In this document: in pieces, positions 1 to 54,828 of the stretch | Numbering within the stretch: the first letter of the stretch is position 1 | Layout: the number at the start of each line of letters is the position of its first letter | Assembly: GCA_903847975.1 (NCBI GenBank) | Contig: CAINFC010000082.1 | Coordinates: 1 to 64,000 of the forward strand | Direction of reading: 5' to 3' | Source: an uncultured Acidobacteriota bacterium | GTDB taxonomy: Bacteria > Acidobacteriota > UBA6911 > CAINFC01 | Length of the DNA: 64,000 nt | Notes under the pieces: model-generated | What the model was told of the DNA's origin: nothing | Databases searched by the model: none | What the model saw: the letters and a program-made list of their open reading frames with translations, nothing else | Position numbers and translations under genes: made by a program

Positions 1-105
1 GAGAAAATAGCCAAACCATTCCAATGGAAATTCACTAGAAAGAATTTGGATGATATGCTCAAGAAGCTTCAGCCCTGGGCTGAGGTCGTTTTAAAATATG
101 CATGA
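1..105 (+). CDS. IS630-family transposase, C-terminal end (partial)
   Basis: Frame 1 is open from the window edge to a TGA at 103-105 and encodes 34 residues containing PFQWKFTRKN followed by a Leu/Lys-rich helix. This ending is typical of IS630-type DDE transposases (family knowledge); the catalytic part lies upstream of the window. Its stop codon overlaps an ATG of the next reading frame (ATGA at 102-105). No terminal inverted repeat could be recognised, so it may be an intact element seen only at its end or a remnant. Confidence 0.6.
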   Translation, partial: EKIAKPFQWKFTRKNLDDMLKKLQPWAEVVLKYA

Positions 106-161
106 AAATAATACGTCATCGAACTTACGAACAAGACCACTTAGGAAGACGATTTTTCAGC

Positions 162-3100
162 ATGGCCTTATCGGCATGCCTGGTATTATCGCTGACGGTT
201 CTTGTCAGTGCGCAAACCAATACCGGTCGTCTTTTGGGATCGGTCGTGGACGCCCAGGGGGGAGTAATCCCCGGGGCTTCTATCACCCTGACCGACAATC
301 AGACGAAACGGGAACGCCAATTAGTTACGGATGAAGCCGGAAATTTCCTGGTTCCGCAGCTGGATCCCGGAAGCTATACGGTAACGACAACCCAGCCGGG
401 TTTTAAAACTTCGACCATCAGCAACGTGGTCATTGAGATCGGCCGGGAATACACTCTGAAGATCAAGCTGGAAGTGGGCGGGGTGGAAACCGTAGTTCAA
501 GTGACCGCCGGGGCCGCCCTGGTCAATGCCGCCAGCGGAGAGGTGAGCAACACCATTACCCAGCGGCAGATCACCCAGCTGCCCCTCAACGGACGCAATC
601 CGTTAAACCTGATGTACATGCAGGCCGGCTCGGCATCCAATCCTTCCCAGAATACTTCCATCAACGGACAGCGCACTGCCTTCACCAATATTACGCACGA
701 TGGAATCAATATTCAGGATGCCTTTATCCGCAGCAACGCCACCGATTTTGCCGCCGGACGTCCTACGGTGGACGATACCGCCGAATTTACCATGGTTTCC
801 CAGAATGCCACCGCCGACCAGGGCGGTTCGGCCCAGATCCGCATGGTCACCCCTCGCGGCAGTTCCGAATATCACGGCGCCCTTTATGAATTCAACCGGA
901 ACTCGGCCCTGGCTGCCAACAGCTTTTTCAACAATCGCTCCGGAGTTGTCCGCCCCTTCCGCAACCGCAATCAGTTCGGCGGAAATTTTGGCGGTCCGGT
1001 TCCCAAGCTGACCAACAAGCTCTTTTTCTATTTTAACTACGAGAAGATGATCGACAAGGTCACCTCTCAGCAAAGCCGGACCATTTTGCTTCCGGAAGCC
1101 CGCAAAGGAATTTTCACCTATCGCGACAACAGCGGAGCCACCAAGACGATCAATCTTTTTACCCTTCTTCCCACGGTAACCGGGATTGACCAGACGATCG
1201 AACAGCGCATTCTTTCCAAAATGCCTACCGCCGGGAATGCGACCGATATCGGCGACCAGATGAACACCACCGGAACCCGTTTCAGTCAAGGCAACGATTC
1301 CACCCGTCCTCAATATACGACCCGCGTGGACTACGAGCTGAGCTCCCATCACATCATCAACGGCGTATGGGCCTGGAATAAAGAGGCCAACCTGCGACCC
1401 GACGTCGATGTCAGCTACGGCGGCGGATTCGGATCCAAACCGGTGACCAACCAGGGTGCCACCAACCGTCGTTTCGTCACGGCCTGGCGGTGGACACCCG
1501 CGGCCCGTTTTTCCAATGAAGTACGCTTCGGCTTTTTCAACAGCGATGTGCCCTTCTATCGCGTAGTCGACCCGCCCGCCTATTTTATCAATCCGGTCCT
1601 GACCAGCAATCCGGATATTACTTTTCTCAACCAGGGGCGCAATGTGCACACTTACAACGTGCAGGATAACGTCGAGTGGCTGATCGGGAAACACAGCCTC
1701 CGCTTTGGTGGCGTCATGCAATGGTTCCAGGTGGATCCCTACAACTATGCCGGAAACGTGCCCACCTGGACCACCGGAACCAATGTGAACACGCCCACCC
1801 TGGCTGCCACCATGTTTCCCGGCGGCATCAGCACCACCCAGCTCAGCACGGCGAATTCGCTCATGGCTCTTCTCGGTGGAGTTATCAGCGCCGGGCAGCA
1901 GTCTTTTAACGTGCCCAACAAGGAAGCCACGGTGTTTACCCCGACGCCGCGGCTGGAAAACTATCGCTACGAAAATCACTCCCTTTACATCAACGACCAG
2001 TGGAGAGCTCGCACCGATCTGACCCTGAACCTGGGCGCGCGGTTTGACCTCCTCACTCCGGCCCGCCTGCTCAACGGCCTGCTGCTGGAGCCGGTCATTC
2101 CCTCCGGCAAGACTCCAATGGAAACCATCCTGAGTCCTACCGGAACCTATAACTATATCGGCGGTAATTCCGGTGCCGAAAACCAGATTCATAAAACCGA
2201 CTGGAACAACATCGCTCCGGTACTCAGCGCGGCCTGGAATCCTCGCCCGCAATCGGGTTTTCTGAAAAAGCTGCTGGGAGAATCGAAAACCGTTTTCCGG
2301 GGAGGCCTGCGTTACAGTTTCGTGAACGATTCCGTCCTTACCGTGGTTCGTGCCGCCAGCCTGCTCAATGCCGGACTCAGCACCACCACGATCGGGGCCA
2401 TCAATCCGGCCACCGGCAACACCGCCTTAAACGCCCGGCTCAACGCTCTGCCGACCATTACTCCTCCGAGCGTGAGGGTGCCCAGAACCTACAGCGACAA
2501 CAACGGCGCCTCCTACAGCAACTTCGGGACGGTGGCCTTGATTGACCCCGAAATACAGGTGCCGCGAACCATGGAATACAACTTCGGCATCCAGCGGGAA
2601 GTGGGTTGGAACACCGTCTTCGAAGTGCGCTATGTCGGCAGCCGCAGCAACAACATGAACCGCGGCCTGGACTACAACCAGGTCGATATCCGCGACAACG
2701 GATTCGCCCAGGATTTCATGCGCGCCCGCCGCAACCTGATTGCCAACGGCAACCCCACGGTCGGGGAAACCCTGACGGTATTTCCGCTGCTCGCCGGCGG
2801 CGGCAATCTGGCCAACACCACCAACCGCAACTATCTGAACAACGGAACCCCGGCGGACATGGCCATCAACTACGTCCAGCTGCTCCAGACCGGTACGGTA
2901 AAATTCCTCCCCAATACGGGCACCGGTCAGGCCTACCTTTTCACCAACGGTTCCAAATACCGGTACAATTCTCTGCAGGTGGAGGCGCGCAAGCGCTTCT
3001 CCAACGGGCTGTTCCTGCTCAGCAACTACTCCTTCCAGAAAGTCCTCACCGACGGGATCGGTACGTCGCAGCAGCTTTTGGAGCCTTACCTGGATAACCG

Positions 3101-3770
3101 GCAGCCGCAACTGGAGTACACCCGGGCCGATTACGACCAGACGCACGTCTTCAATTTCAGCAACATGTACGAACTGCCCTTCGGTCGCAACAAGGCTTTC
3201 CTGAGCGGGGTCCACCCGGCGGTCAATCACCTGATCGGCGGCTGGTCCGTCAACACCATTATCCGGGTTGGTACCGGTGCCCCTATCACGATTACCGACG
3301 CACGGGGAACCTTGAATCGCGGCACCCGATCCGGAAGGCAGACGCCGAACACTTCGCTGAACAAAGAACAGATCAAGAAGCTGCTCGGCCACTTCGAAAC
3401 TTCCCGCGGCATCTATTTCATTAACCCTTCCGTTACCAATCAGGCCACGGGAAGAGCATCCGAAGGATATGGCTCCACGCCTTTTTCCGGCCAGGTGTTC
3501 TTTAACGCCGAGCCCGGTACTACGGGAATGATGGAAAGAGCGATCCTTAACGGGCCGTGGTTCACCCAGTTCGACCTTTCCCTGCACAAGAATATCAACT
3601 TCACCGAACGGATCAAGCTGCAGATCCGCGGCGAAGCCTTTAACCTGACCAATTCGGTTTACTTTGCCCCTGGCCAGACCCAGGACATCGGCAGCACCAG
3701 CTTCGGCCGGGTGACCGGGACCGCTCAGGCCGCCCGGGTCCTGCAGCTGGGAGCGCGGCTGGAGTTCTAA
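162..3770 (+). CDS. TonB-dependent receptor with N-terminal carboxypeptidase-regulatory domain (Oar-like)
   Basis: Outer-membrane beta-barrel receptor of about 1202 residues, presumably importing an oligosaccharide, peptide or metal complex across the outer membrane. A signal peptide (MALSACLVLSLTVLVSAQ) leads into a Cna-B/carboxypeptidase-like domain at roughly residues 20-105 (GRLLGSVVDAQGG, GSYTVTTTQPGF). A plug region follows with LNGRNPLNL, and then a long Asn/aromatic-rich barrel ends in Phe, as outer-membrane proteins do. The start at 162 is preferred because the frame from the ATG at 102 adds 20 charged residues before the signal peptide and overlaps the transposase stop; AGGAAG at 143-148 is a distant possible ribosome site. 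There is no SusD partner. The substrate is unknown. Confidence 0.85.
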   Translation: MALSACLVLSLTVLVSAQTNTGRLLGSVVDAQGGVIPGASITLTDNQTKRERQLVTDEAGNFLVPQLDPGSYTVTTTQPGFKTSTISNVVIEIGREYTLKIKLEVGGVETVVQVTAGAALVNAASGEVSNTITQRQITQLPLNGRNPLNLMYMQAGSASNPSQNTSINGQRTAFTNITHDGINIQDAFIRSNATDFAAGRPTVDDTAEFTMVSQNATADQGGSAQIRMVTPRGSSEYHGALYEFNRNSALAANSFFNNRSGVVRPFRNRNQFGGNFGGPVPKLTNKLFFYFNYEKMIDKVTSQQSRTILLPEARKGIFTYRDNSGATKTINLFTLLPTVTGIDQTIEQRILSKMPTAGNATDIGDQMNTTGTRFSQGNDSTRPQYTTRVDYELSSHHIINGVWAWNKEANLRPDVDVSYGGGFGSKPVTNQGATNRRFVTAWRWTPAARFSNEVRFGFFNSDVPFYRVVDPPAYFINPVLTSNPDITFLNQGRNVHTYNVQDNVEWLIGKHSLRFGGVMQWFQVDPYNYAGNVPTWTTGTNVNTPTLAATMFPGGISTTQLSTANSLMALLGGVISAGQQSFNVPNKEATVFTPTPRLENYRYENHSLYINDQWRARTDLTLNLGARFDLLTPARLLNGLLLEPVIPSGKTPMETILSPTGTYNYIGGNSGAENQIHKTDWNNIAPVLSAAWNPRPQSGFLKKLLGESKTVFRGGLRYSFVNDSVLTVVRAASLLNAGLSTTTIGAINPATGNTALNARLNALPTITPPSVRVPRTYSDNNGASYSNFGTVALIDPEIQVPRTMEYNFGIQREVGWNTVFEVRYVGSRSNNMNRGLDYNQVDIRDNGFAQDFMRARRNLIANGNPTVGETLTVFPLLAGGGNLANTTNRNYLNNGTPADMAINYVQLLQTGTVKFLPNTGTGQAYLFTNGSKYRYNSLQVEARKRFSNGLFLLSNYSFQKVLTDGIGTSQQLLEPYLDNRQPQLEYTRADYDQTHVFNFSNMYELPFGRNKAFLSGVHPAVNHLIGGWSVNTIIRVGTGAPITITDARGTLNRGTRSGRQTPNTSLNKEQIKKLLGHFETSRGIYFINPSVTNQATGRASEGYGSTPFSGQVFFNAEPGTTGMMERAILNGPWFTQFDLSLHKNINFTERIKLQIRGEAFNLTNSVYFAPGQTQDIGSTSFGRVTGTAQAARVLQLGARLEF

Positions 3771-4142: not shown

Positions 4143-5243
4143 CTAACGGAAATCCCGGAGGAAAAAGCGGACGAAGGTAATTCGTTCGTAGGGTCCGCGT
4201 TCTCCCTTCTCGTAGAGCAGGCCGACTTCATCTCCTTGAAGCGCGACCAGGTTGGAATAGGCGGACGGGCCGGAAAAAATGGTTCGGGAAGCAACCCAGT
4301 TCCGGCCTTCGTCGCGGCTCAAGCGCACGGTCATGTTGACCCGTTTCCTGTCGGCCGGGTTGGAGAACAGGAGCACCCGGCTCTTCCCCTTGCCGCAGGC
4401 GATCAGGCTGGCCTGGCAGACCGGCTCCAGGAGAGCCTCGTCATCCGTCGGCGGGCTCCAGGTCAAGCCCCTGTCCCGGCTGAGCGATACCGCCCGGCGG
4501 TTCCGCCCGGCGTAACTGCGCATATTCAGCATCAGGGTCCCGTCCGCCTGTTCGACAACCGTGGATTCGTTGCAGCCCGGGCCGGCAGTTCCACCCAGTT
4601 GCCAGGTCTTGCCTCGGTCGTCGCTGTAAATCACATGGGAGTAGTGCCTGCCGTTCCAGTCGTGGTCGCAGGGGATTACCAGGCGTCCGCTCCGCAGCTG
4701 AATGCCGTTGACCGGACCGGTGGCATACCAGGACCATTCCGGCTGCTTCACTGCTGCGGTGATATCGACCGGTGCAGACCAGGTCAGGCCGTCATCCCGG
4801 CTGGAGGTGACCCAGACGGTGCGCGTCGGCCCGGACAGTCCCGCGGCAATCTGCTTTTCGGGAACGTCTCCCGGATTGCGGGTCAGCAGCAGCCAGATCG
4901 TTTTGGTGCGGCGATCGACCACCGGAGCCGGATTGCCGATGGTGTCGGCGCCGAAGTCCGCCACGACAACGGCCGGCAGCCAGGTCCGTCCGCCGTCCCG
5001 GCTGCGCCGCAGCAGCAAATCGATATCGCCCCAGTCGCTGGATGCTCCGCGGCGCCCCTCGCAGAAAGCCAGCAGGGTCCCCTTTTCCGAACGCACCAGG
5101 GCCGGAATCCGATAGGTGTGGTAGCCGCCCTCCCCGGAGGTGAAGACATCGATGGATGCCGGGGGCCCCTCGGCTCCTCGAATCCAGGGGCAGCCGGTGA
5201 GCAACGACAGAAAAACAAGAGAATGGAGCCAATGTCTTTTCAT
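4143..5243 (-). CDS. Exo-alpha-sialidase (neuraminidase, GH33-type), lipoprotein
   Basis: Hydrolyses terminal sialic acids from glycoconjugates, probably at the cell surface. The 366-residue protein starts MKRHWLHS with a hydrophobic stretch and a lipobox LLTGC (Cys18). It shows the sialidase YRIP motif (Arg45), an early acidic motif SSDWGD, and five Asp-boxes (SRDGGRTW, SRDDGLTW, SDDRGKTW, SRDRGLTW, SRDEGRNW). Near the C-terminus AYSNL matches the family's nucleophilic Tyr region. The ATG at 5243 was chosen over an upstream in-frame start at 5306 because it places the lipobox correctly. It is the last gene of a four-gene operon, 50 bp after the lyase gene, which supports sialic-acid scavenging. 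Residue assignments come from motif recall, not alignment. Confidence 0.88.
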   Translation of the reverse strand: MKRHWLHSLVFLSLLTGCPWIRGAEGPPASIDVFTSGEGGYHTYRIPALVRSEKGTLLAFCEGRRGASSDWGDIDLLLRRSRDGGRTWLPAVVVADFGADTIGNPAPVVDRRTKTIWLLLTRNPGDVPEKQIAAGLSGPTRTVWVTSSRDDGLTWSAPVDITAAVKQPEWSWYATGPVNGIQLRSGRLVIPCDHDWNGRHYSHVIYSDDRGKTWQLGGTAGPGCNESTVVEQADGTLMLNMRSYAGRNRRAVSLSRDRGLTWSPPTDDEALLEPVCQASLIACGKGKSRVLLFSNPADRKRVNMTVRLSRDEGRNWVASRTIFSGPSAYSNLVALQGDEVGLLYEKGERGPYERITFVRFFLRDFR

Positions 5244-5293
5244 TCTAATTTCCCAATTCTCGGTTCGGTAAATCCCTGGATCTTGACCCGGGG

Positions 5294-6208
5294 TCAGGAC
5301 AGCCATTCAAAAAAGCCGAGCCGTTCCAGGTCGGAGCGTAACGCCGCACGCTGGGCGGCGGTGAGGTTGGTGTTGGGGAGCCGCGCCGGTCCCACATCCA
5401 CGCCCAGAAAGTCCATTAGCGCCTTGGCCGCCCCCATGTACCCGTAGCCCGCCAGCGTCTTGACCAGGTCCACCGAGCGCAGCTGCTCCCGCCTCGCCGC
5501 GGCGAGATCCCCGGCCGCCGCGGCGGCCATCACCCGATGATAGATTTTGGCGGCAAAGCAGTAGCTGCTGCCCACGGCGCCCTGCGCCCCGAGCGACAGG
5601 GCGGCCAGCAGGAATTCGTCATTCCCCCAGGGAATATCGAAGGCCCCGTCCTCCAGCCGCAGGCATTGCTGGTACTGCATAAGATCGGGATTGGTGAACT
5701 TGATCCCCGCCAGGTTCGGGATCCGCTCCCGGCCCCGAAGGAGAAACTCCGGCATGGGCATCGGCACCCCGGTCATGGAAGGAATGTCGTAATAATAGAA
5801 GGGCAGCTCCGGGGCGGCGGAAGCGATTTCCGCGCAGCAGGCTACCAGGACCTCCAGGTCGCGCGGCTTGAAATAGCAGGGAGTCAGCGCGGCGAAAGCC
5901 AGGGCGCCCAGCCCGCCGGCCTGGGAAGCCAGCTGCCTGGCCTCCGAAAGGCAGTTGGAGCCCACATGCACGACCACCTGCAATGCGGTGCCGCGCACCA
6001 CCTCCATCCAGCGTCGGGCCAGGCCAAGCCGCTCCTCGAGGGTCAGGGAATGGCTTTCCCCGGTGGTACCGCCGATAAAGGTGATACGCAGGTCCTGTTT
6101 GAGAAAATGCTCCGCCTGCTTTTCCACGGCCGAAAGATTCAGCGAACCGTCCGGCCGAAACGGAGTATGCGCTGCGGCCACCAGGCCCTTCAAACGAAGT
6201 CGTGTCAT
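5294..6208 (-). CDS. nanA: N-acetylneuraminate lyase-type aldolase (DapA superfamily)
   Basis: Predicted cytoplasmic class I aldolase cleaving N-acetylneuraminate to N-acetylmannosamine and pyruvate. The 304-residue length fits the DapA/NAL superfamily. The sequence has GGTTGESHSL, a YYYDIPSMTG segment carrying the active-site Tyr, and a Schiff-base Lys in AGIKFTNPDL. These look closer to animal-type neuraminate lyases (GTTGEGLSL, LKFSDTDL) than to dihydrodipicolinate synthase. The ATG at 6208 is preceded by a strong GAGAGGAG site; longer in-frame extensions upstream lie inside the transporter gene and are rejected. It lies 11 bp after the MFS gene and upstream of the sialidase. A related keto-deoxy-sugar aldolase remains possible. 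Confidence 0.82.
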   Translation of the reverse strand: MTRLRLKGLVAAAHTPFRPDGSLNLSAVEKQAEHFLKQDLRITFIGGTTGESHSLTLEERLGLARRWMEVVRGTALQVVVHVGSNCLSEARQLASQAGGLGALAFAALTPCYFKPRDLEVLVACCAEIASAAPELPFYYYDIPSMTGVPMPMPEFLLRGRERIPNLAGIKFTNPDLMQYQQCLRLEDGAFDIPWGNDEFLLAALSLGAQGAVGSSYCFAAKIYHRVMAAAAAGDLAAARREQLRSVDLVKTLAGYGYMGAAKALMDFLGVDVGPARLPNTNLTAAQRAALRSDLERLGFFEWLS

Positions 6209-6219
6209 TCTTTCTCCTC

Positions 6220-7500
6220 TCAACCATCGTTCCGGCATGGCTTGACCAGGAACAAAGTCAAACCTGCCAATAAAATGAGCCCGGCCACTACCTGAAAGGT
6301 AGTCAGAAAGGGAACCTGAGCGTCCTTTAGCCTTCCGCCCACATAAATCATGAATCCGCCGGTAAGGGTGCTTACAAAATTCAACAGGCCATATCCGCTG
6401 GCCCGGAAACGGGAATCGACCACATTGCAGACAGCGGGCATCAGGTTGGAATCCAGATTGCCCTGGGAGGTGCCCACCATGACAATGGATGCCAGAATCC
6501 AGGGAATCGACTGCGCCCACCCGATGCCGAAGAGACAGGGGGCCGCCAGGCAGAACCCGATGGCCGGAACCAGGGACCGGGCCCGCGGATTGCTCTGGCT
6601 CCAGCGGTCGGCGGTCCATCCGGCCAGCAGCATGCCGGCAAAGGCCGCCAGATTGAAAAAGGCGGTGCCATAAATTCCGGCCCGGGCCAGATCCACCCGG
6701 AGTTCGCTGTTAAAGAACATCGGCAGCCAGTTCCGGATCGTCCAGATGGAGGCGCCCACCAGGGCGTTGGTCAGCAGCAGCAGCAGAAAGCTTCGCGAGG
6801 AAAGCAGAGCTTTCAAAGTCGCGCCCAGCCGTACTTTTTCCCCGGGGCGTCCGCTCAGCCCCGGACCGAAATCTCTTCGCCTCGGCCGGGGCAGCGCCAG
6901 GAGCAGCAGAAAGGTATAGGCCACTCCCGCCAGGCCAAACAGCTGAAACCCGAATCTCCATCCGTAGTTCTGGGCCAGCCACCCTCCCAGTCCTCCCAAT
7001 ACCGCTCCGGCATAGGCTCCGCTCAGGTGCAGCCCCGTGGCCCGGGAGCGGGTTCTCCCGCTGTGAAATTCCACGATCATGGCCACCGCGGCGGGGATGT
7101 AGAAGGCTTCGCTGATGCCCATCAGGGCCCGGGCGGTGAGCATCTCGGCGAAGGTCCGGGCATATCCGGTCAACCAGGTAACCAGCGACCAGACCAGCAG
7201 GCTTCCCATAATGATTCGTTTTCGATCGAAACGGTCGGCCAGAAATCCGGAGAAGGGGCTCAGCAGGCCGTAAATCCAAAGAAACAGGGAGGAAAAAAGA
7301 CCGAAGTCCGCATCGCCGATCTGCAGCTCCCCTTTGATGGGCGCGCCCATGGTGATGATGAGCTGCCGGTCGAGGTAATTGAAGCAGGCCACCACCCACA
7401 GAAGGCCGACGAGCAGCCAGGCCCGAAAGGAAGATTCCTCCCGCCCGACCCCGTCCGGGTCATATCCCGATTCGATCGCACCTTTTGTCATGACGGCCAC
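6220..7500 (-). CDS. MFS transporter, probable sialic acid or sugar-acid importer
   Basis: Inner-membrane major facilitator of 426 residues with about 12 hydrophobic segments. After TM1 (WLLVGLLWVVACF) comes NYLDRQ, a common MFS opening, and the loop 2-3 signature is recognisable as GFLADRFDRKRI. The start is a GTG at 7500 behind GAGAGG; an ATG at 7491 is an alternative. It begins 10 bp after the stop of the outer-membrane receptor gene and ends 11 bp before the lyase, so it is translationally tied to both. The position suggests it moves the sugar released by the sialidase from periplasm to cytoplasm; substrate specificity is inferred from context only. Confidence 0.82.
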   Translation of the reverse strand: MAVMTKGAIESGYDPDGVGREESSFRAWLLVGLLWVVACFNYLDRQLIITMGAPIKGELQIGDADFGLFSSLFLWIYGLLSPFSGFLADRFDRKRIIMGSLLVWSLVTWLTGYARTFAEMLTARALMGISEAFYIPAAVAMIVEFHSGRTRSRATGLHLSGAYAGAVLGGLGGWLAQNYGWRFGFQLFGLAGVAYTFLLLLALPRPRRRDFGPGLSGRPGEKVRLGATLKALLSSRSFLLLLLTNALVGASIWTIRNWLPMFFNSELRVDLARAGIYGTAFFNLAAFAGMLLAGWTADRWSQSNPRARSLVPAIGFCLAAPCLFGIGWAQSIPWILASIVMVGTSQGNLDSNLMPAVCNVVDSRFRASGYGLLNFVSTLTGGFMIYVGGRLKDAQVPFLTTFQVVAGLILLAGLTLFLVKPCRNDG

Positions 7501-7510
7501 GCAACGCCTC

Positions 7511-10500
7511 TCAGAAGATATACTTTAGCGCAAATTGGATGTTGCGTCCTCCGCTGGCGGCCTGAATTTTTCCGAAGTTGGCATTGCTGAGAACGCTGAC
7601 TGGATTACTCAAGACCTTGTGATTCAGTGCGTTGAAGAGCTCGAAGCGGAAGTTGATCTTCTGGCGCTCGGTGAGAGAAAAGGTTTTATGCAGGGCGGCG
7701 TCATAGGTCAGGCCGGAAGGACCGTAAAAGGTATTGAATCCGAGAGTCCCAAAGCGCTTCAGCTTGGCCGGCGTGGCCGAATCGAAGGCCGCCGGGTTGA
7801 GCCACGTCAGGCCGCTGGCGTTTTTCAGGTAGGGTTCGGTGCCGGCGACCCGATCCGGGCGGGCGCCGTCGCTGCGACCGTTGCCGATCAGATCGCGCCC
7901 CGCGGTGACATTGATCGGCATGCCGGAACGCCACGACAGGATGCCCTGAAACGCCCATCCGCCCAGCACGCCCCGGGCCAGGGCGTGTTCCTGGACCCAG
8001 GGAATTTGCGGCACCTGGTAGGAATATACGGAAACCAGCCGGTGGCGCGTGTCGCCGGCTTTCGGCCCGTAGGAGCCGGCGACGTTACTGTAGTCCTGCA
8101 CCGAGGTATCGTAGGTGATGGTCCCGTCGGCTCCGCCGTACTGCATGGCTTTGGCAAGGGTGTAATGGATATCCGCGGCCAGCCCGCGGCCCATTCTTTT
8201 GTTGAGCGACAGCTGCAGGGCATGGTACGAACTGCTGGCCGAGTTCTCGCGAAACACGATTTCGCCCATATCCGTCCGCGGCCGCTTGCCGGTGGCGGGA
8301 TCGATCAAATTGAAGGTTCGCGTGGTGTAGAGATGCACCCCGCGGCTGCCGACATAGGAAGCCTGCGCGGCCAGGGTGGAGGTCAGCGCCGATTGCAGGC
8401 TCAGGTTCCATTGCCCGGAGTATTCATCCTTGCGATTGAAATCGGTAATGCTGCGGCTCAGGATGAAACTGGCGGGCAGAAGATTGGGATTGGCTACGAT
8501 GGCCATCACATAGCTTTGAGGGAAAGGAAAGGCGATGTTAACCGAGCTGGGCACATCCGTCGGGGCAAAGGTGGCGGTCAGCGGCAGTCGGGGGTCGGCA
8601 AAAGCCATATCGTAATAAAGGATCGGCTGCGGCGGCCCATAGGTCAGGCCCGCTCCGAAGCGCACCACCAGTTTCTGATTGCCGATGGTATCCCAGACCA
8701 TACCGAAGCGCGGCGCCCAGTTATTTTTGTCGCCGGCATAGTAGCCTTCCTTGTTACTGGGCCCGAAAGGCCCGAAGGGATCGGATCCGGTGACATTGAA
8801 GGCGCCGGTGAGCGGCTCGTAATATTCGTAGCGCACCCCGGTATTCAGCTGCAGCCGGGGGTGGACCCGCCAGTCATCCTGCACATAGCCGGCATAGTTG
8901 GTGGTGAAGTTGTGCTTGCTGGTGTTGAAAATCAGCTGGATGCGCGCCGCCTTGTCGGCGATCAGATCGTCGGTGGTATTGTAGGTATGGGTTGGCAGAC
9001 CGCCCTGAATGCGGTAGCTGCGCACTTCGCGGATATCCACTCCCGCTTTCAGCGTGTGCCGGCCGCGAATCATGGTCAGGTTATCGACGAAGGAGAAGGT
9101 GTTGGTGGTGAAATGAATAAAGCTGGCCAGGCTGGCGCTCAAACTGCCGGTGGTGACGGTCAGAAAGCCGGAAAGCTGGCTGAAGCCGGTGTAGTTGCGA
9201 TCCAGATCGGCACGGTTGAAGCCCACCCGGACTTCGTTGAACATGGCCGGCGAGAGAGCAAAGGTGTCCTGCAGGGCCAGGTTGTGGGTCCGATTGGGAT
9301 AAACCTGCGGGTTGCCGGGCAGCAGCTGCGGGTTGGTGAAGTTCTGATGATTGTAGCTGTAGCGCCCGCTGATGCGGTGCTGCCCCAGCATCCAGTCGAT
9401 CCGGGAGAGATAGGTGTGCTCGTTGTTTTTGGTCTGGTCGTTCCGGCGGTGCAATCCGATCAGGGGATTGCTGGTGGCCGTATAGCTGGTGGGCAGCAAA
9501 GCGAGCGTGGAGCGTATGTTCTGCGGAACCCGCGACAGCAGGGCAGGCGTGGGGACATTCCCGGTGATGGTCGTTCCGCGGGTGACGATCGCTCCCTCAT
9601 AGTTGAAAAAGAAGAACAGCTTGTCTCGACGGATGGGTCCGCCCAGGTTGCCCCCGAACTGATTCCAGCGCAACGGCGGCTTCTTCAGTCCCGAGAAGTT
9701 GGAGAAAAAGCTGTTGGCATCCAAGGCATCGTTGCGGAAATATTCGAAGGCCGTTCCGTGCCACTGGTTGGTGCCCGATTTGGTGGTGATGTTCAATACC
9801 CCGCCGGTGGCCCGGCCGTATTCGGCGGAAAAGGCGCTGCTGGTGGCCTTGAACTCCTGGATGGCCTCGACGCTGACCGCATTGATCAGCACGCCGCTGG
9901 CGCCGGCCGCGGCGCCGCCGGTGGCGTTGACCTCCCCGAACGACATATCCACGCCATCCAGGAGCAGATTGTTCCCCAGGGCGGGCGAACCGTTGAACTC
10001 GATGCCGCCGCGTCCGCCGGCCCCGCTGGACGGGGCGTTGACCACTCCCGCCTGCAACCCGACCAGCTGCTGGTAGTTGCGCCCGTTGAGCGGCATCGAG
10101 TCGGTCTTGTTCTGGTCGATCACCACGCCCAGGTCGGTGGTGGTGGCGTTGATGAGCGGCATGCCGCCTTCCACCGTGACGGTTTCCGTGGTCCCCCCCA
10201 CGGTGAGATTGAAATCGAAGCGCGGCCGGGTTCCGGTATTCAGCTCGAAGGAATCGCTGCGGCGCGGTACAAAGCCTGCGGCGGTCACCTCAACGACATA
10301 CCGTCCGGCAGACAGCAGGGGAAATTCATAATACCCCTGACTGTTGGTGGTAACCGTGTGGCTGATATTGGTGGACGTGTTGGTGGCCTTCACCGTCGCC
10401 TGCGGCACCACTGCTCCGCTCGGATCGACGACGGTTCCCACCAGCGACCCGCCGCCGATCTGAGCCGGTGCCAGCAGGAAGAAGGCAGACAGCAGAAGGG

Positions 10501-10543
10501 CCAGCCAGGCAGTTGTCACGGCTGATCGATAGAGCTTACCCAT
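7511..10543 (-). CDS. TonB-dependent receptor with N-terminal carboxypeptidase-regulatory domain
   Basis: Outer-membrane receptor of 1010 residues and first gene of the sialic-acid-type operon. It has a signal peptide (residues 1-27, ending APA), a Cna-B-like domain (about 29-115: GSLVGTVVDPSGAVV, GRYVVEVTAAGF), a plug with MPLNGRNYQQL and LLLDGVDMS, and a barrel ending KYIF. The ATG at 10543 is preceded by a GGAGGAACACC site. It is related in layout to the receptor at 162-3770 but clearly different in sequence, so the two probably take different ligands. No SusD-type lipoprotein accompanies it; the cell-surface sialidase may supply its substrate. Expression probably depends on the promoter and palindrome directly upstream. 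Confidence 0.87.
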   Translation of the reverse strand: MGKLYRSAVTTAWLALLLSAFFLLAPAQIGGGSLVGTVVDPSGAVVPQATVKATNTSTNISHTVTTNSQGYYEFPLLSAGRYVVEVTAAGFVPRRSDSFELNTGTRPRFDFNLTVGGTTETVTVEGGMPLINATTTDLGVVIDQNKTDSMPLNGRNYQQLVGLQAGVVNAPSSGAGGRGGIEFNGSPALGNNLLLDGVDMSFGEVNATGGAAAGASGVLINAVSVEAIQEFKATSSAFSAEYGRATGGVLNITTKSGTNQWHGTAFEYFRNDALDANSFFSNFSGLKKPPLRWNQFGGNLGGPIRRDKLFFFFNYEGAIVTRGTTITGNVPTPALLSRVPQNIRSTLALLPTSYTATSNPLIGLHRRNDQTKNNEHTYLSRIDWMLGQHRISGRYSYNHQNFTNPQLLPGNPQVYPNRTHNLALQDTFALSPAMFNEVRVGFNRADLDRNYTGFSQLSGFLTVTTGSLSASLASFIHFTTNTFSFVDNLTMIRGRHTLKAGVDIREVRSYRIQGGLPTHTYNTTDDLIADKAARIQLIFNTSKHNFTTNYAGYVQDDWRVHPRLQLNTGVRYEYYEPLTGAFNVTGSDPFGPFGPSNKEGYYAGDKNNWAPRFGMVWDTIGNQKLVVRFGAGLTYGPPQPILYYDMAFADPRLPLTATFAPTDVPSSVNIAFPFPQSYVMAIVANPNLLPASFILSRSITDFNRKDEYSGQWNLSLQSALTSTLAAQASYVGSRGVHLYTTRTFNLIDPATGKRPRTDMGEIVFRENSASSSYHALQLSLNKRMGRGLAADIHYTLAKAMQYGGADGTITYDTSVQDYSNVAGSYGPKAGDTRHRLVSVYSYQVPQIPWVQEHALARGVLGGWAFQGILSWRSGMPINVTAGRDLIGNGRSDGARPDRVAGTEPYLKNASGLTWLNPAAFDSATPAKLKRFGTLGFNTFYGPSGLTYDAALHKTFSLTERQKINFRFELFNALNHKVLSNPVSVLSNANFGKIQAASGGRNIQFALKYIF

Positions 10544-10571
10544 GGTGTTCCTCCGTTGGAATGTCGTTTGA

Positions 10572-10583
10572 ATTATCGATAAT
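10572..10583. promoter_or_regulatory. Operator palindrome 1 (GntR-type site) at the receptor operon start
   Basis: A perfect 12-bp palindrome, ATTATCGATAAT, is identical to the copy at 10634-10645. It lies about 10 bp downstream of the predicted -10 box of the minus-strand operon, covering the likely start of transcription. The two palindrome centres are 62 bp apart, close to six helical turns. Binding by the adjacent FCD-type regulator is inferred. Confidence 0.75.
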
Positions 10584-10592
10584 CATGAACCC

Positions 10593-10622
10593 ATGTTAAA
10601 ATCTGTTGTCTGTGTTTGTCAA
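10593..10622 (-). promoter_or_regulatory. Predicted sigma-70 promoter of the receptor-MFS-lyase-sialidase operon
   Basis: On the minus strand TTGACA (10617-10622) is followed after 18 bp by TAACAT (10593-10598). Its -35 box overlaps the -35 box of the divergent regulator promoter, and operator 1 lies immediately downstream, which suits repression by blocking initiation. Confidence 0.6.
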
Positions 10623-10645
10623 GCATTTTATCGATTATCGATAAT
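10616..10645 (+). promoter_or_regulatory. Predicted sigma-70 promoter of the GntR regulator
   Basis: TTGTCA (10616-10621) is followed after 18 bp by GATAAT (10640-10645). The -10 box is part of operator 2, so the regulator would repress itself. Transcription would begin near 10652, about 20 nt before the ATG at 10671. Confidence 0.55.
10634..10645. promoter_or_regulatory. Operator palindrome 2 overlapping the regulator -10 box
   Basis: This is the second exact copy of ATTATCGATAAT. A further partial half site (TTATCGAT, 10628-10635) abuts it on the left, making an extended, overlapping target. Its position inside the predicted regulator promoter points to autoregulation. Confidence 0.72.
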
Positions 10646-10670
10646 TTTTCCAGGAAGGCACACGCTCCCT

Positions 10671-11423
10671 ATGAAAACCGGAATCTATAAGCGCATGGAA
10701 ACCTCGATACCGTCGGCCCCCCTGGTTCAAACCGGGTCTTTCGTTCTGGCCGATTCGCTGAAGACCCAGATGGCCGCCATCATTAAAGAGATGATTTTCA
10801 ACGGCCAGCTCAAGCCGGGGGATGCCTTGCGGGAATTGCATCTGGCCCGCAAGTTCCAGGTGAGCCAGGCCACCGTTCGCGAGGCCCTGCTGGAACTGGA
10901 GCAGCACGGACTGGCGGTGCGGCTGGCCAATCGCAGCACCACTGTAACCCGGCTGTCCCCGGGAGAAGTCCGCGACCGGCTGGAAATCCGCTCCCAGCTG
11001 GAACCCTTGGCCTGTATCCGTGCCGCCGGCCATCTGCAAGGGGATGATTTCCGGTATCTCGGCCGCCTGGCGACCAAAATCTCGAGAGACCACCGTAGCC
11101 CCAACTACAGTTTCTACGAGACGAGCCTGACCGATTACCAGTTTCACCGCTACCTCTGGCAGAAGTCGGGAAGCACGATTCTGTGCGCCACACTGGAACA
11201 GGTGACCCTTCCGCTCTTTGCCTTCATCGGCCTGCTGCGCCAGGCCGGCCTGGAAGAGAGGCGGCCCAGCGACACCCACAAGCCGATCCTCGAGGCCTTA
11301 CGCAGCGGGGAGGCAGATCCCATTACCCACGCCGTGCGCCAGCACTTTAAAAACTCCTATAATCACTTCCTGGAAAGCGAGTCCGAAAATCTTCAGACGC
11401 TGCTGGCCGGCCAGAGCGGATAG
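10671..11423 (+). CDS. GntR-family transcriptional regulator, FadR/FCD subgroup (NanR-like)
   Basis: A 250-residue DNA-binding regulator. The N-terminal winged helix spans about residues 23-85 (AAIIKEMIFNGQLKPG, QVSQATVREALLELE). An all-helical FCD domain follows at about 95-240, with Asp/His positions of the metal-binding pocket (DYQFHRYLW, a His in THKPILEAL, a late QHFKN). The ATG at 10671 has AGGAAGG 12 nt upstream; an earlier in-frame ATG at 10593 is rejected because operator 2 and the predicted promoter would fall within the coding sequence. It is divergent from the sialidase operon, as expected for its local repressor, with the sugar or an aldolase intermediate as likely inducer. The ligand is inferred. 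Confidence 0.88.
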   Translation: MKTGIYKRMETSIPSAPLVQTGSFVLADSLKTQMAAIIKEMIFNGQLKPGDALRELHLARKFQVSQATVREALLELEQHGLAVRLANRSTTVTRLSPGEVRDRLEIRSQLEPLACIRAAGHLQGDDFRYLGRLATKISRDHRSPNYSFYETSLTDYQFHRYLWQKSGSTILCATLEQVTLPLFAFIGLLRQAGLEERRPSDTHKPILEALRSGEADPITHAVRQHFKNSYNHFLESESENLQTLLAGQSG

Positions 11424-20382: not shown

Positions 20383-21384
20383 ATGGTTATCGTCGAATCT
20401 TACCTGACCGCGGTGCTGATGTGCTTCATTACCATGCTGTGCTGGGGTTCCTGGGCCAACACCCAGAAACTGGCCGGTAAAAAGTGGCCTTTCCAGCTCT
20501 TCTATTGGGATTACGCCCTGGGCGTTTTCCTGCTTTCCCTGATCCTGGCCTTTACCATGGGCAGCACCGGCGGTGCGGGAAGGTCTTTTCTGGCCGATCT
20601 TTCCCAGGCGGATTCCGGCTCGCTGGGCTCCGCCTTCCTGGGCGGCCTGATTTTTAATTTATCCAACATCCTGCTGGTAGCGGCCATCGATATCGCCGGC
20701 ATGGCGGTCGCCTTCCCCATCGGAGTCGGCCTGGCTCTGGCCCTGGGGGTGATCAGCACCTACTGGACCAAGCCGGAAGGAAATCCGGTTCTTCTCTTTT
20801 TGGGGGTATGCGGAGTCGTTGTGGCCATCCTTCTCGACGCCCTGGCCTATCGGCGGCTCACCTCGGGACAGAAGACCACCACCAAAGGGATCGTCATTTC
20901 CGTGCTGGCCGGTTTCCTGATGGGCTTCTTCTACCGCTTTGTAGTCGCCGCCATGGCCGCCGACTTCGCTCATCCCGAGGCCGGAAAGCTGGGCCCGTAT
21001 TCGGCAGTGGTTCTTTTTTCCGGCGGGCTGCTGCTATCCAATTTCCTGTGGAACAGCCTGGTGATGTGGAAGCCTTTTACCGGAGACCCGGTCCCCATGG
21101 GCGATTACTTCCGCAAAGGCGACCTGCGGCTTCACCTGACCGGAATCCTGGGCGGCATCATCTGGAATATCGGCATGTCTTTCAGCATCGTCGCCTCCGG
21201 GGCAGCTGGCCCGGCGATCTCCTACGGACTGGGCCAGGGGGCGACCATGGTGGCCGCCTTCTGGGGGGTGTTCATCTGGAAGGAGTTCCAGAGCGCTCCC
21301 CGGGGCACCGGCCGGCTGCTGGCCTGGATGTTCCTGTCTTACGCCGCCGGACTGGCCCTGCTCATTCTCGCCCGGATTGCCTGA
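20383..21384 (+). CDS. Ureide-permease-like / GRP-type sugar transporter (DMT superfamily)
   Basis: A ten-helix inner-membrane transporter of 333 residues. The opening MVIVESYLTAVLMCFITMLC, followed by WGSWANTQKLAGKKW and FYWDYALGV, resembles plant ureide permeases (PF07168-like). The general plan also fits GRP/RbsU sugar uptake proteins. Helices are rich in Gly (GMAVAFPIGVGLALALGVI). The ribokinase gene begins 34 bp downstream on the same strand, which favours import of ribose, a nucleoside or a related compound that the kinase then phosphorylates. The name and substrate are inferred from recalled sequence style and context. Confidence 0.72.
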   Translation: MVIVESYLTAVLMCFITMLCWGSWANTQKLAGKKWPFQLFYWDYALGVFLLSLILAFTMGSTGGAGRSFLADLSQADSGSLGSAFLGGLIFNLSNILLVAAIDIAGMAVAFPIGVGLALALGVISTYWTKPEGNPVLLFLGVCGVVVAILLDALAYRRLTSGQKTTTKGIVISVLAGFLMGFFYRFVVAAMAADFAHPEAGKLGPYSAVVLFSGGLLLSNFLWNSLVMWKPFTGDPVPMGDYFRKGDLRLHLTGILGGIIWNIGMSFSIVASGAAGPAISYGLGQGATMVAAFWGVFIWKEFQSAPRGTGRLLAWMFLSYAAGLALLILARIA

Positions 21385-21418
21385 CCCTGCGCCCCCGATA
21401 AAAGAAAGGAGAAGCCGC

Positions 21419-22360
21419 ATGACCGTACCGATTGTTGTCATAGGAAGCCTGAACATGGACTTCGTTGTGCAGATGCCCCGGCTGCCGGAAAGAGGACAAA
21501 CCCTCTGCGGAGAAGGGTTTCAGATGCTGCCCGGCGGGAAAGGCGCCAACCAGGCCTGCGCCGCCGGCCGCCTCGGAGGCCGGGTCCGGATGCTCGGCCG
21601 GGTCGGAGCGGACATCTTCGGAGAGCAGCTCCGCCTCAGCCTGCAATCCGCGGGAGTGGACGCCGGAATGGTCCTGGCCACGGAGGGCACCGCCACCGGA
21701 GTCGCCCTGATCTTCGTGGAATCCGGCGGGCAAAACATGATCGTCATCGCCGCCGGGGCCAACGGGAAGCTTTCCCCGGAAGACCTGCTGTCTGCCCAGG
21801 CGGCCTTTGCGCCCGGGCTGCTTCTGCTGCAGCTGGAGACGCCCCTGGAAACCGTAGCGGCAGCGGCCGCCCTTGGAAAAAGCCGCGGCATGACCGTCCT
21901 CCTGGACCCGGCTCCGGCGCAGGCCCTCCGCCGTAACCTGCTGGAGCATGTCGACCTGCTCACCCCGAACGAAACCGAAGCCCTCGCCTTGCTGGGCCGC
22001 CCGGGCCGCGACCTGCCCCTGGCCGAAGCCGGAAAAATCGCCCGCGAACTGCTCCTCCTGGGTCCGCGCAGCGTCATTCTCAAGCTGGGATCCAAGGGAG
22101 CCTGGTGGACCGACGGGGTGCGGGACCGGCACTTTCCGGCAATCCCGGTGCAGGCCATCGACGCCACCGCCGCCGGAGACACCTTCAATGGCGCTCTGGC
22201 CGTTGCCCTGGCGGAAGGCAAAGCGATGGAGGAAGCCATCCCCTTTGCCAACGCCGCAGCGGCACTCTCGGTCACACGGCTGGGAGCCCAGGCCTCGATC
22301 CCGGACCGGGAGGAGACCGAACGCCTGTTGCGGACTACATCCCTTTACGGGCAAAAATGA
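21419..22360 (+). CDS. rbsK: Ribokinase (PfkB family)
   Basis: Phosphorylates ribose (or a closely related sugar) at the 5 position with ATP. The 313-residue protein has the PfkB signature 1 around GGKGANQACAAGRLG and signature 2 DATAAGDTFNGAL, with the catalytic Asp in AAGD. The N-terminus VVIGSLNMDFV is characteristic of ribokinase. The ATG at 21419 follows AAAGGAGAAG at good spacing; an earlier in-frame start at 21377 overlaps the end of the transporter region without a ribosome site. It is co-oriented with the transporter. The 3-prime end overlaps the convergent sugar transferase gene by 26 bp. Confidence 0.9.
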   Translation: MTVPIVVIGSLNMDFVVQMPRLPERGQTLCGEGFQMLPGGKGANQACAAGRLGGRVRMLGRVGADIFGEQLRLSLQSAGVDAGMVLATEGTATGVALIFVESGGQNMIVIAAGANGKLSPEDLLSAQAAFAPGLLLLQLETPLETVAAAAALGKSRGMTVLLDPAPAQALRRNLLEHVDLLTPNETEALALLGRPGRDLPLAEAGKIARELLLLGPRSVILKLGSKGAWWTDGVRDRHFPAIPVQAIDATAAGDTFNGALAVALAEGKAMEEAIPFANAAAALSVTRLGAQASIPDREETERLLRTTSLYGQK

Positions 22361-53685: not shown

Positions 53686-54675
53686 TTATTTCCTGGACTT
53701 GGGCCCGTTTTCCCGGGCCCATGCTGCGGCGCCGGTTGCCGTGGCGTGATCCCCCAGCCGGGCGGTTACCACCCGGAAGGAATTTCGGTAGGTAGGCATC
53801 ACCCGGCTGCGCGCGGTGCGCGTCACTTCCTGGAGGAAGAGGTCCGGCATGGCCTCCACCAGACCGCCGCCCAGCAGGACGACGTCCGGAGCCAGCAGCT
53901 GGATGGCGTTGGCCACGCCGATGCCGATCCAGCGCGCCGCTTCTTCCAGGATGGACCGGATCGACTGGTCTCCGGCGGAAATGGCTCGAGCCAGGGAGGA
54001 GCTACGGATCTGCGACAGGTCCGTGCCCACCTCCTGCGCCAGGTGAGGGGCATCGCCGCGGTAAATCGCCGTAGCCGCTGCTGCGGCAATGGCCAGGCGG
54101 CTGGCCAGAGCTTCCAGGCAGCCCCGCTGGCCGCACCCGCATAAAGGCCCGTCGGGTTGCACCTGGCAATGGCCTATCTCGAAGCAGGATCCCGTCTTTC
54201 CCCGAATGATCCGCCCCTCATAGATGCAGCCGCCTCCGATGCCGGTGCCCGGAAATACGCCGATCGCACAGCGGGCACCGCGGGCGGCGCCAAAGCTATA
54301 TTCCCCGTACACGCCGGCGTCCACATCGTTGGAAATCACCGTCGGACACGGGTAGCGTTTCTCCAAAATCCTCTTCAGCGGAAGATTTTTCCACCCCATA
54401 TTGGGGCTTTCCAGCAGAACGCCCTTGTTGAGGTCCAGAGGACCGGGAACTGCCACGCCGATGCCCAGAAGGGACTCTCCGGGAACGCCGCATTCGGCCA
54501 GCGTCTGCTCCACGGTTTCGATGATGCGCGACACGCCGTTCTCCGCTCCTCCCCCGCCGGCCTTGGTTTTCCGCCGTTTTTCCCCCACAACCCGGAATTC
54601 GGAATCGAAGACCAGCCCGAGCATTTTGGTGGCTCCCAGGTCGAATCCCACCCAGTATTTCGCTTGTTTTCGCAT
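53686..54675 (-). CDS. ROK-family sugar kinase (glucokinase-like)
   Basis: Phosphorylates a hexose or N-acetyl-hexosamine using ATP (or polyphosphate in some relatives). The 329-residue protein has the ATP-binding opening VGFDLGATKMLGL, the sugar-binding VISNDVDAGVYGE, the GIGGGCIYEG stretch, and the ROK zinc/His motif FEIGHCQVQPDGPLCGCGQRG. The ATG at 54675 is preceded by AAAGGAA; the frame upstream to 54750 is not needed. Twelve bp separate it from ppx. Its neighbour ppk1 raises the possibility of a polyphosphate glucokinase, but no decisive residue is visible. Confidence 0.85.
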   Translation of the reverse strand: MRKQAKYWVGFDLGATKMLGLVFDSEFRVVGEKRRKTKAGGGGAENGVSRIIETVEQTLAECGVPGESLLGIGVAVPGPLDLNKGVLLESPNMGWKNLPLKRILEKRYPCPTVISNDVDAGVYGEYSFGAARGARCAIGVFPGTGIGGGCIYEGRIIRGKTGSCFEIGHCQVQPDGPLCGCGQRGCLEALASRLAIAAAAATAIYRGDAPHLAQEVGTDLSQIRSSSLARAISAGDQSIRSILEEAARWIGIGVANAIQLLAPDVVLLGGGLVEAMPDLFLQEVTRTARSRVMPTYRNSFRVVTARLGDHATATGAAAWARENGPKSRK

Positions 54676-54828
54676 TTCCTTTTCCCTCTCTTCCCGCCGA
54701 TCAGCATTTTGGGACGGCTTCCTGATGCTTCCTGCAGGGGCACAGCGCACCGGTCCCCCGCAGAAAGTTGCACGTCTTCGGTGCGGCTCCGCGGACGGCG
54801 CATCCCCTTGCCTCGACCGCCCGGTCCG

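Follow-up and report, generated by a model that had tools for sequence, protein, structure and literature searches.

A candidate sialic acid scavenging operon with a TonB-dependent-type receptor in an uncultured Acidobacteriota bacterium

The window considered here is a stretch of 64,000 nucleotides (contig CAINFC010000082.1, assembly GCA_903847975.1) from an uncultured Acidobacteriota bacterium, whose genome assembly comprises 8,130,373 bases in 326 contigs and is 99.12% complete. It contains a four-gene operon and a divergent regulator gene that most likely form a regulated system for scavenging sialic acid, i.e., nonulosonates of the N-acetylneuraminic acid (Neu5Ac) type. The operon lies on the minus strand and spans 10543-4143, in the order receptor, major facilitator superfamily (MFS) transporter, lyase, and sialidase. 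An earlier note, made from the letters alone, had described an operon of sialidase, lyase, MFS importer, and TonB receptor divergent from an FCD-type GntR regulator, and both the open reading frames (ORFs) and the Pfam scores agree with it. Its interpretation as a sialic acid scavenging locus is still the best reading, backed by the active-site positions, the comparison with cassettes from other phyla, and a second acidobacterial operon. The five genes are the following.

7511..10543 (-): operon gene 1, receptor of 1010 aa with a CarboxypepD_reg N-domain and an OMP_b-brl_4 barrel; proposed outer-membrane sialic acid importer
6220..7500 (-): operon gene 2, MFS transporter of 426 aa; proposed inner-membrane sialic acid importer
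5294..6208 (-): operon gene 3, class I aldolase of the N-acetylneuraminate lyase type (NanA/NPL-like), 304 aa, with its ATG at 6208
4143..5243 (-): operon gene 4, sialidase of the glycoside hydrolase family 33 (GH33) type, 366 aa, with a probable lipoprotein signal
10672..11423 (+): GntR/FCD regulator, divergent from the operon; the longest ORF begins at 10593, and 10672 is preferred

All five ORFs are present at these coordinates, and every protein passes its Pfam cut-offs. The operon genes are separated by 10, 11, and 50 bases, and sites of the GGAGG/GAGAGG type precede the first three. The start of the aldolase was corrected to 6208 (the longer ORF start at 6619 was dropped) and that of the sialidase to 5243, its best start. 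For the regulator, 10672 is more plausibly the start than 10593, because AGGAAGG precedes it and the second of two palindromes described below lies between both positions.

In the proposed pathway, the sialidase, probably lipoprotein-anchored, would free the terminal sugar. The receptor would then import it, or else a small sialoside, through the outer membrane, energised by TonB and with no SusD partner encoded in the operon, and the MFS protein would carry the sugar over the inner membrane. The lyase would cleave it into pyruvate and N-acetylmannosamine, so that the cell would gain at least pyruvate. The GntR/FCD protein may act on the two palindromes to keep both divergent promoters silent, probably releasing them once a ligand from the pathway binds.

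Sialidase, lyase, and related cassettes

By its fold and its intact active-site positions, the product of the fourth gene is a predicted GH33 exo-sialidase, expected to release sialic acid. It matches BNR_2 with 149.3 bits, and its translation contains several Asp-box repeats (S-x-D-x-G-x-x-W; PF02012, 43.7 bits against a cut-off of 27). A sequence search of the PDB returned the sialidase 4bbw as the closest solved relative (4.6e-51); in all, 82 distinct PDB sequences reach 1e-5 or better, and sialidase or neuraminidase accounts for most names among the 60 matches listed. Residues R45, D70, E226, R242, R301, Y329, and E345 are invariant in all 53 aligned homologues, of which 29 come from acidobacterial loci and 24 from named lyase loci. 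We take these residues to be the GH33 catalytic positions, namely the arginine triad, the acid/base aspartate, and the tyrosine/glutamate pair. D75 had been considered as the acid/base residue and was dropped, since it varies among the homologues and the invariant aspartate is D70. The N-terminus carries an LTGC lipobox, which we take to be a lipoprotein signal by the usual rule, and the enzyme is probably anchored in this way. Among 396 Acidobacteriota genomes, relatives 54-60% identical occur in nine others, and 22 genomes, own genome counted, have a match at 1e-45 when up to five candidates are scored per genome. Sialidases within the named lyase loci, which were picked by their lyase, are 29-43% identical to that of the window. 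The own genome holds 25 listed stretches matching BNR_2, two of which (L001 and L002) outscore the operon sialidase.

The lyase belongs to the dihydrodipicolinate synthase (DHDPS) family (161.3 bits). Its three top solved relatives in the PDB are all named N-acetylneuraminate lyases, and the third of them, 6arh, is presumably the human enzyme. All 82 relatives have K170, Y140, and D197, E198 and S214 are found in 80 of the 82, and position 216 (Y in the window lyase) is occupied by Y in 54 and by F in 28. We take these positions to comprise the Schiff-base lysine, the tyrosine, and the G-x-D-E and GS-x-Y sites, and it is these two sites that set such lyases apart from DHDPS, as the PDB alignments show against the DHDPS 5ud6. 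The earlier note had called the enzyme animal-type. The label fits the grouping of NanA from Bacteroidetes, Verrucomicrobia, and Planctomycetes with eukaryotic NanA given in the available text of a 2009 survey (PMC2693436); its closest relatives among the sequences found come from bacteria. In a tree of 87 lyases, the window lyase falls without support into an unresolved part; the five rows at the shortest path distance from it are MFS-adjacent lyases, all from Planctomycetota and Verrucomicrobiota. The enzyme is rare among its own kin, being found in 3 of 38 genomes of its class at 1e-40 and in 7 of the 396 Acidobacteriota genomes at 1e-60 (own genome counted), with identities of at least 60% confined to the own genome and G024. 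The latter, from the same class, has two lyases (L012/L015 and L014/L016) that are 61-62% identical to the window lyase, and one of them adjoins a receptor 23-27% identical to the window receptor.

A scan of named genomes with the lyase yielded 270 relatives; the best 80 loci, mostly from Planctomycetota and Verrucomicrobiota, carry lyases 55-67% identical to that of the window. Gene context was tallied in 79 of these 80; the window, L015, L016, L017, and L055 were left out (L055 is apparently the L015 contig), and for L018 the comparison covered the five window proteins and the palindrome core only. In 48 of the 79 loci, the lyase gene has a relative of the window MFS protein encoded on its own strand at a distance of no more than 400 bases. 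Where at least 6 kb were available on both sides (41 loci), the MFS gene was found within 600 bases of the lyase in 22, and the surroundings of these 22 within 8 kb include NanM in 15, a sialidase in 14, AGE in 11, and SASA in 5. Over the same distance, the other 19 loci show no NanM, AGE, or SASA and a sialidase in two, both with weak scores and more than 7 kb away. Four loci with shorter flanks and without an adjacent MFS gene (L062, L067, L068, and L074) carry NanM, sialidase, or AGE. The window receptor has no match in the 79 loci at E 1e-10. Nan genes have been reported in Planctomycetota (PMC11929135).

Receptor, transporter, and regulator

The receptor is predicted to be of the TonB-dependent type (OMP_b-brl_4 PF25183, 549.8 bits; CarboxypepD_reg PF13620, 76.2 bits; PF00593, 45 bits), and TonB-dependent import of sialic acid is proposed for it. 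We know of no substrate assigned to receptors of this kind, and a narrow literature search found no such assignment. Among the 396 Acidobacteriota genomes, with the two best first-look candidates scored in each, a single strong relative was found, 58% identical. It is located in G378, where it heads an operon (L148) that continues with a sulfatase, NanM, a frame comprising an SSF symporter and a sialidase, and an aldolase of the DHDPS family. The L148 sialidase is 54% identical to that of the window, and the best-scoring sialidase relative also comes from this locus, while the aldolases share only 30% identity. The receptor thus keeps company with the sialidase in both operons, whereas the lyase and the inner-membrane transporter are of different kinds. 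This recurrence is the main new support for the substrate of the receptor, and it supports sialic acid as the likely candidate. Thirteen acidobacterial sialidase regions were compared; NanM and aldolase profiles match in three of them (L148-L150), a receptor more than 50% identical occurs in one, and weaker receptor matches (26-33%) occur in two more. The symporter and sialidase of L148 share one open frame (L148:5745-8507), as do NanM and an SSF symporter in L149 (L149:5440-8019), and each may be a true fusion or a pair of read-through neighbours. First-look receptor candidates are very numerous, with 195 in the own genome and 249 in G378, nearly all unscored. A second receptor with the same two domains is encoded in the window at 102-3770 (+), oriented toward the sialidase end of the operon (OMP_b-brl_4, 433.8 bits; CarboxypepD_reg, 70.9 bits).

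The operon may be a mosaic, in which lyase and MFS transporter resemble the cassette of Planctomycetota and Verrucomicrobiota and the best matches of sialidase and receptor are acidobacterial. This reading is tentative, because the sialidase and the receptor were searched in Acidobacteriota and in the lyase-bearing loci only. The transporter itself is a clear MFS protein (MFS_1 PF07690, 199.4 bits) and, as judged by the models, not a NanT of the sialate:H+ symport (SHS) type (TIGR00891, 36.9 of 552.9 bits; NF003024, 41 of 604 bits).

The regulator combines a GntR domain (PF00392, 55.3 bits) with an FCD domain (PF07729, 49.2 bits), and NanR belongs to the same GntR/FCD class. Two exact copies of a palindrome lie in the divergent promoter region, 62 bases apart.

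10572..10583: palindrome ATTATCGATAAT, proposed operator 1, overlapping a -10-like GATAAT of the operon promoter
10634..10645: palindrome ATTATCGATAAT, proposed operator 2, overlapping a -10-like GATAAT of the regulator promoter

These are the only exact copies of ATTATCGATAAT in the whole genome, where about 0.08 would be expected from the base composition of the window and the reversed control gave 0. A further copy with two mismatches, at 10627-10638, overlaps operator 2; degenerate copies were sought within the window. The palindrome holds GATAAT on both strands, so that some of the overlap with the -10 elements follows from its own sequence. Such a layout would fit a repressor, and both copies are predicted operators. 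A regulon shared through this operator was considered and dropped, since ATTATCGATAAT has no other exact copy in the genome and unlinked genes are not tied in by it. The core, TATCGATA, gave scattered matches without pattern in the loci of near relatives. At the other end of the operon, no terminator is claimed 3' of the sialidase gene, with a folding z-score of -0.08 and 8 terminator-like sites against a shuffled mean of 8.4.

Fate of the sugar and alternative readings

Several observations weigh against a sialic acid operon. Substrate, direction of transport, and repression are all predicted from sequence, and the specific protein models are not reached. The lyase scores below the NanA equivalog cut-offs (NF003164, 131.3 of 281 bits; TIGR00683, 116.6 of 382 bits), models that were presumably made for other NanA subgroups. 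The MFS protein passes no sialate-transporter cut-off, its best NCBIfam match being TIGR00893 with 137.5 bits against 395, and the regulator is not a NanR equivalog (NF003011, 45.9 of 260 bits), the common part being the GntR and FCD domains only. The operon has no NanM gene. Among the related lyase loci with long flanks, 19 of 41 are without an adjacent MFS gene, NanM, or AGE, and the context counts are descriptive, because the profiles behind them derive from clusters taken from those very loci. The neighbourhood scan found no sialidase-profile match near either G024 lyase; with this pair and other related lyases encoded away from sialidases, the substrate does not follow from the fold alone. 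The receptor link comes from one other genome, G378, in a survey that scored the two best first-look candidates per genome, and L149 and L150, which have NanM, sialidase, and aldolase, gave no receptor match. Ten of the 13 acidobacterial sialidase regions have no NanM or aldolase match. Promoter-like sites in the divergent region exceed the shuffles only moderately (5 against a mean of 2.3, sd 1.5).

The remaining adverse points concern the step after N-acetylmannosamine. The earlier note had observed that the kinase and epimerase genes NanK and NanE are not adjacent and might be unlinked. They are indeed not at the locus, but NanE is not merely unlinked: its profile (PF04131) has no match in the whole genome, while 8 of 14 control genomes were positive, six of them over the cut-off. 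The Pfam-level search found one protein of the AGE superfamily, L099. Of 117 columns that are conserved among 22 AGE relatives, it matches 39, and a Q replaces the H present in 21 of the 22. One other conserved histidine is kept in L099; with this one kept and the former absent, it was rejected as a normal AGE epimerase. With NanE unmatched and no AGE protein that convinces as an epimerase, use of N-acetylmannosamine is not evident, and the epimerase step is a real gap in this assembly. A genome-wide look for nanK, nanE, nagA, and nagB, suggested in the earlier note, thus had a mixed outcome. NagA is present over its cut-off (311.5 against 225.65 bits), as are six ROK proteins over the Pfam cut-off. 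The NagB-like protein L113 is uncertain, being over the Pfam cut-off and under every NCBIfam NagB cut-off listed. Another strong Pfam NagB match, L112, was rejected as NagB and reads as a 6-phosphogluconolactonase, because it is flanked by phosphoglucose-isomerase-like and ribose-5-phosphate-isomerase-like genes.

Some neighbouring genes may be mentioned here. On contig C142 of the own genome (L166:6874-11101 and L166:16607-19917), MFS, Gfo/Idh oxidoreductase, NagB-like, and RraA-like genes stand in a row; ABC-transporter-like genes and one for a SIS-domain protein follow at some distance, and a ROK gene lies close to where the contig ends. The group is possibly an amino-sugar cluster; the RraA and ABC names were given by reading. 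Within the window, a ROK gene resembling glucokinases (TIGR00744, 199 bits against a cut-off of 260.35) is located at 53686-54750 (-), about 42 kb from the operon, and a ureide-permease-like gene (PF07168) overlaps a PfkB sugar kinase gene at 20383-22360 (+).

The gap could mean that the cell uses only the pyruvate and lets the N-acetylmannosamine go, or that it has a novel epimerase. Such a truncated or novel route is a possibility with less than even chances. It is compatible with the scavenging of sialic acid and concerns the last step only. It is suggested by the lack of NanE in a genome 99.12% complete (0 of 1, against the 8 positive controls of 14), by the conserved histidine missing from the single AGE-superfamily protein, and by the finding that 18.4 kb of L148 contain no AGE-profile match. 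Against this, a gene may be missing from an assembly in 326 contigs, the ROK proteins and NagA suggest use of amino sugars, and the epimerase searches were at the Pfam level, with AGE as the one epimerase covered by the L148 scan. A more specific proposal has the SusD-free, one-component receptor, a member of the expanded acidobacterial OMP_b-brl_4 family, dedicated to the import of sialic acid, in a cell that would take only pyruvate or use an unrecognised N-acetylmannosamine epimerase; it is tentative and less likely than not.

The operon could also handle 2-keto-3-deoxynononic acid (Kdn, a deaminated sialic acid) or a related nonulosonate instead of Neu5Ac. The lyase would in that case release mannose along with pyruvate, and the cell could do without an epimerase for N-acetylmannosamine. 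This would explain the missing NanE or normal AGE, although related MFS-lyase cassettes often carry AGE. The operon sialidase also matches the extracellular sialidase 2xcy (2.1e-37), which we take to be a fungal, Kdn-preferring enzyme. However, sialidases and BNR/Asp-box proteins, 4bbw among them, lead the PDB matches, and the AGE and NanM genes of the related cassettes fit Neu5Ac. Neuraminate lyases accept both sugars, so that sequence cannot separate the two, and Kdn appears an unlikely substrate on the evidence as a whole. Least probable is a broader operon for glycans or plant sugars, with a BNR protein hydrolysing, e.g., acids of the 3-deoxy-D-manno-octulosonic acid (Kdo) or 3-deoxy-D-lyxo-heptulosaric acid (Dha) type and a general ulosonate aldolase: GH33 includes hydrolases for other ulosonates, related lyases occur outside sialidase contexts, and BNR_2 stretches abound in the genome, but the sialidase active-site set is complete, the top PDB names are sialidase or BNR/Asp-box protein, the related cassettes have NanM and AGE, and the receptor relative stands beside NanM and a sialidase.

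Comparison with known sialic acid systems

The proposed scavenging operon has partial counterparts in several systems. NanOU is a TonB-type sialic acid system with a SusD partner (PMC3969230, PMC10017367, both in the text available). The Bacteroidetes NanOU/NanA/NanE-II/RokA system likewise has a TonB-type receptor, an MFS permease, and a neuraminate lyase for sialic acid, and its NanA falls into the same broad grouping in the available portion of PMC2693436. The window operon differs from it: no SusD-type NanU is found among the four operon genes, where alone it was looked for; the receptor matches OMP_b-brl_4; and an AGE epimerase in the place of NanE-II is neither in the operon nor convincingly found in the genome. 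PMC10017367 describes NanC and NanOU as systems for sialic acid in the outer membrane and states that studies of uptake through this membrane have so far covered no others.

The E. coli type of NanA-NanK-NanE cluster (PMC2693436 and PMC10570557, in the parts available) shares the lyase reaction and the GntR/FCD class of regulator. In the window, by contrast, NanE is undetected, NanK is unlinked, the transporter falls under the cut-offs for NanT of the SHS type, and the regulator is not a NanR equivalog. Sialic acid catabolism genes have been described in environmental metagenomes, with mention of an acidobacterial nanE in the accessible text (PMC10570557). Among the titles and abstracts searched, none describes an operon for sialic acid that includes such a receptor from Acidobacteriota.

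The lyase-transporter pair resembles the cassettes of Planctomycetota and Verrucomicrobiota, in which the MFS gene lies directly upstream of NanA and a sialidase is often close; these cassettes often add NanM, AGE, or SASA, and the window operon differs in this. L148 of G378 shares the receptor and the sialidase with the window and differs by its sulfatase, NanM, SSF symporter, and distant aldolase. What appears to be new is the joining of such a lyase-transporter pair to a sialidase and a receptor that both find their best matches, as far as searched, in Acidobacteriota, in an operon without SusD that is well supported as a predicted scavenging operon. One receptor of a very numerous kind can thereby be tied to a testable sugar by two operons with different lyases and transporters. 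A regulated acidobacterial sialic acid operon without an evident epimerase would test how far bacteria that are not associated with animals diverge from the textbook pathway.

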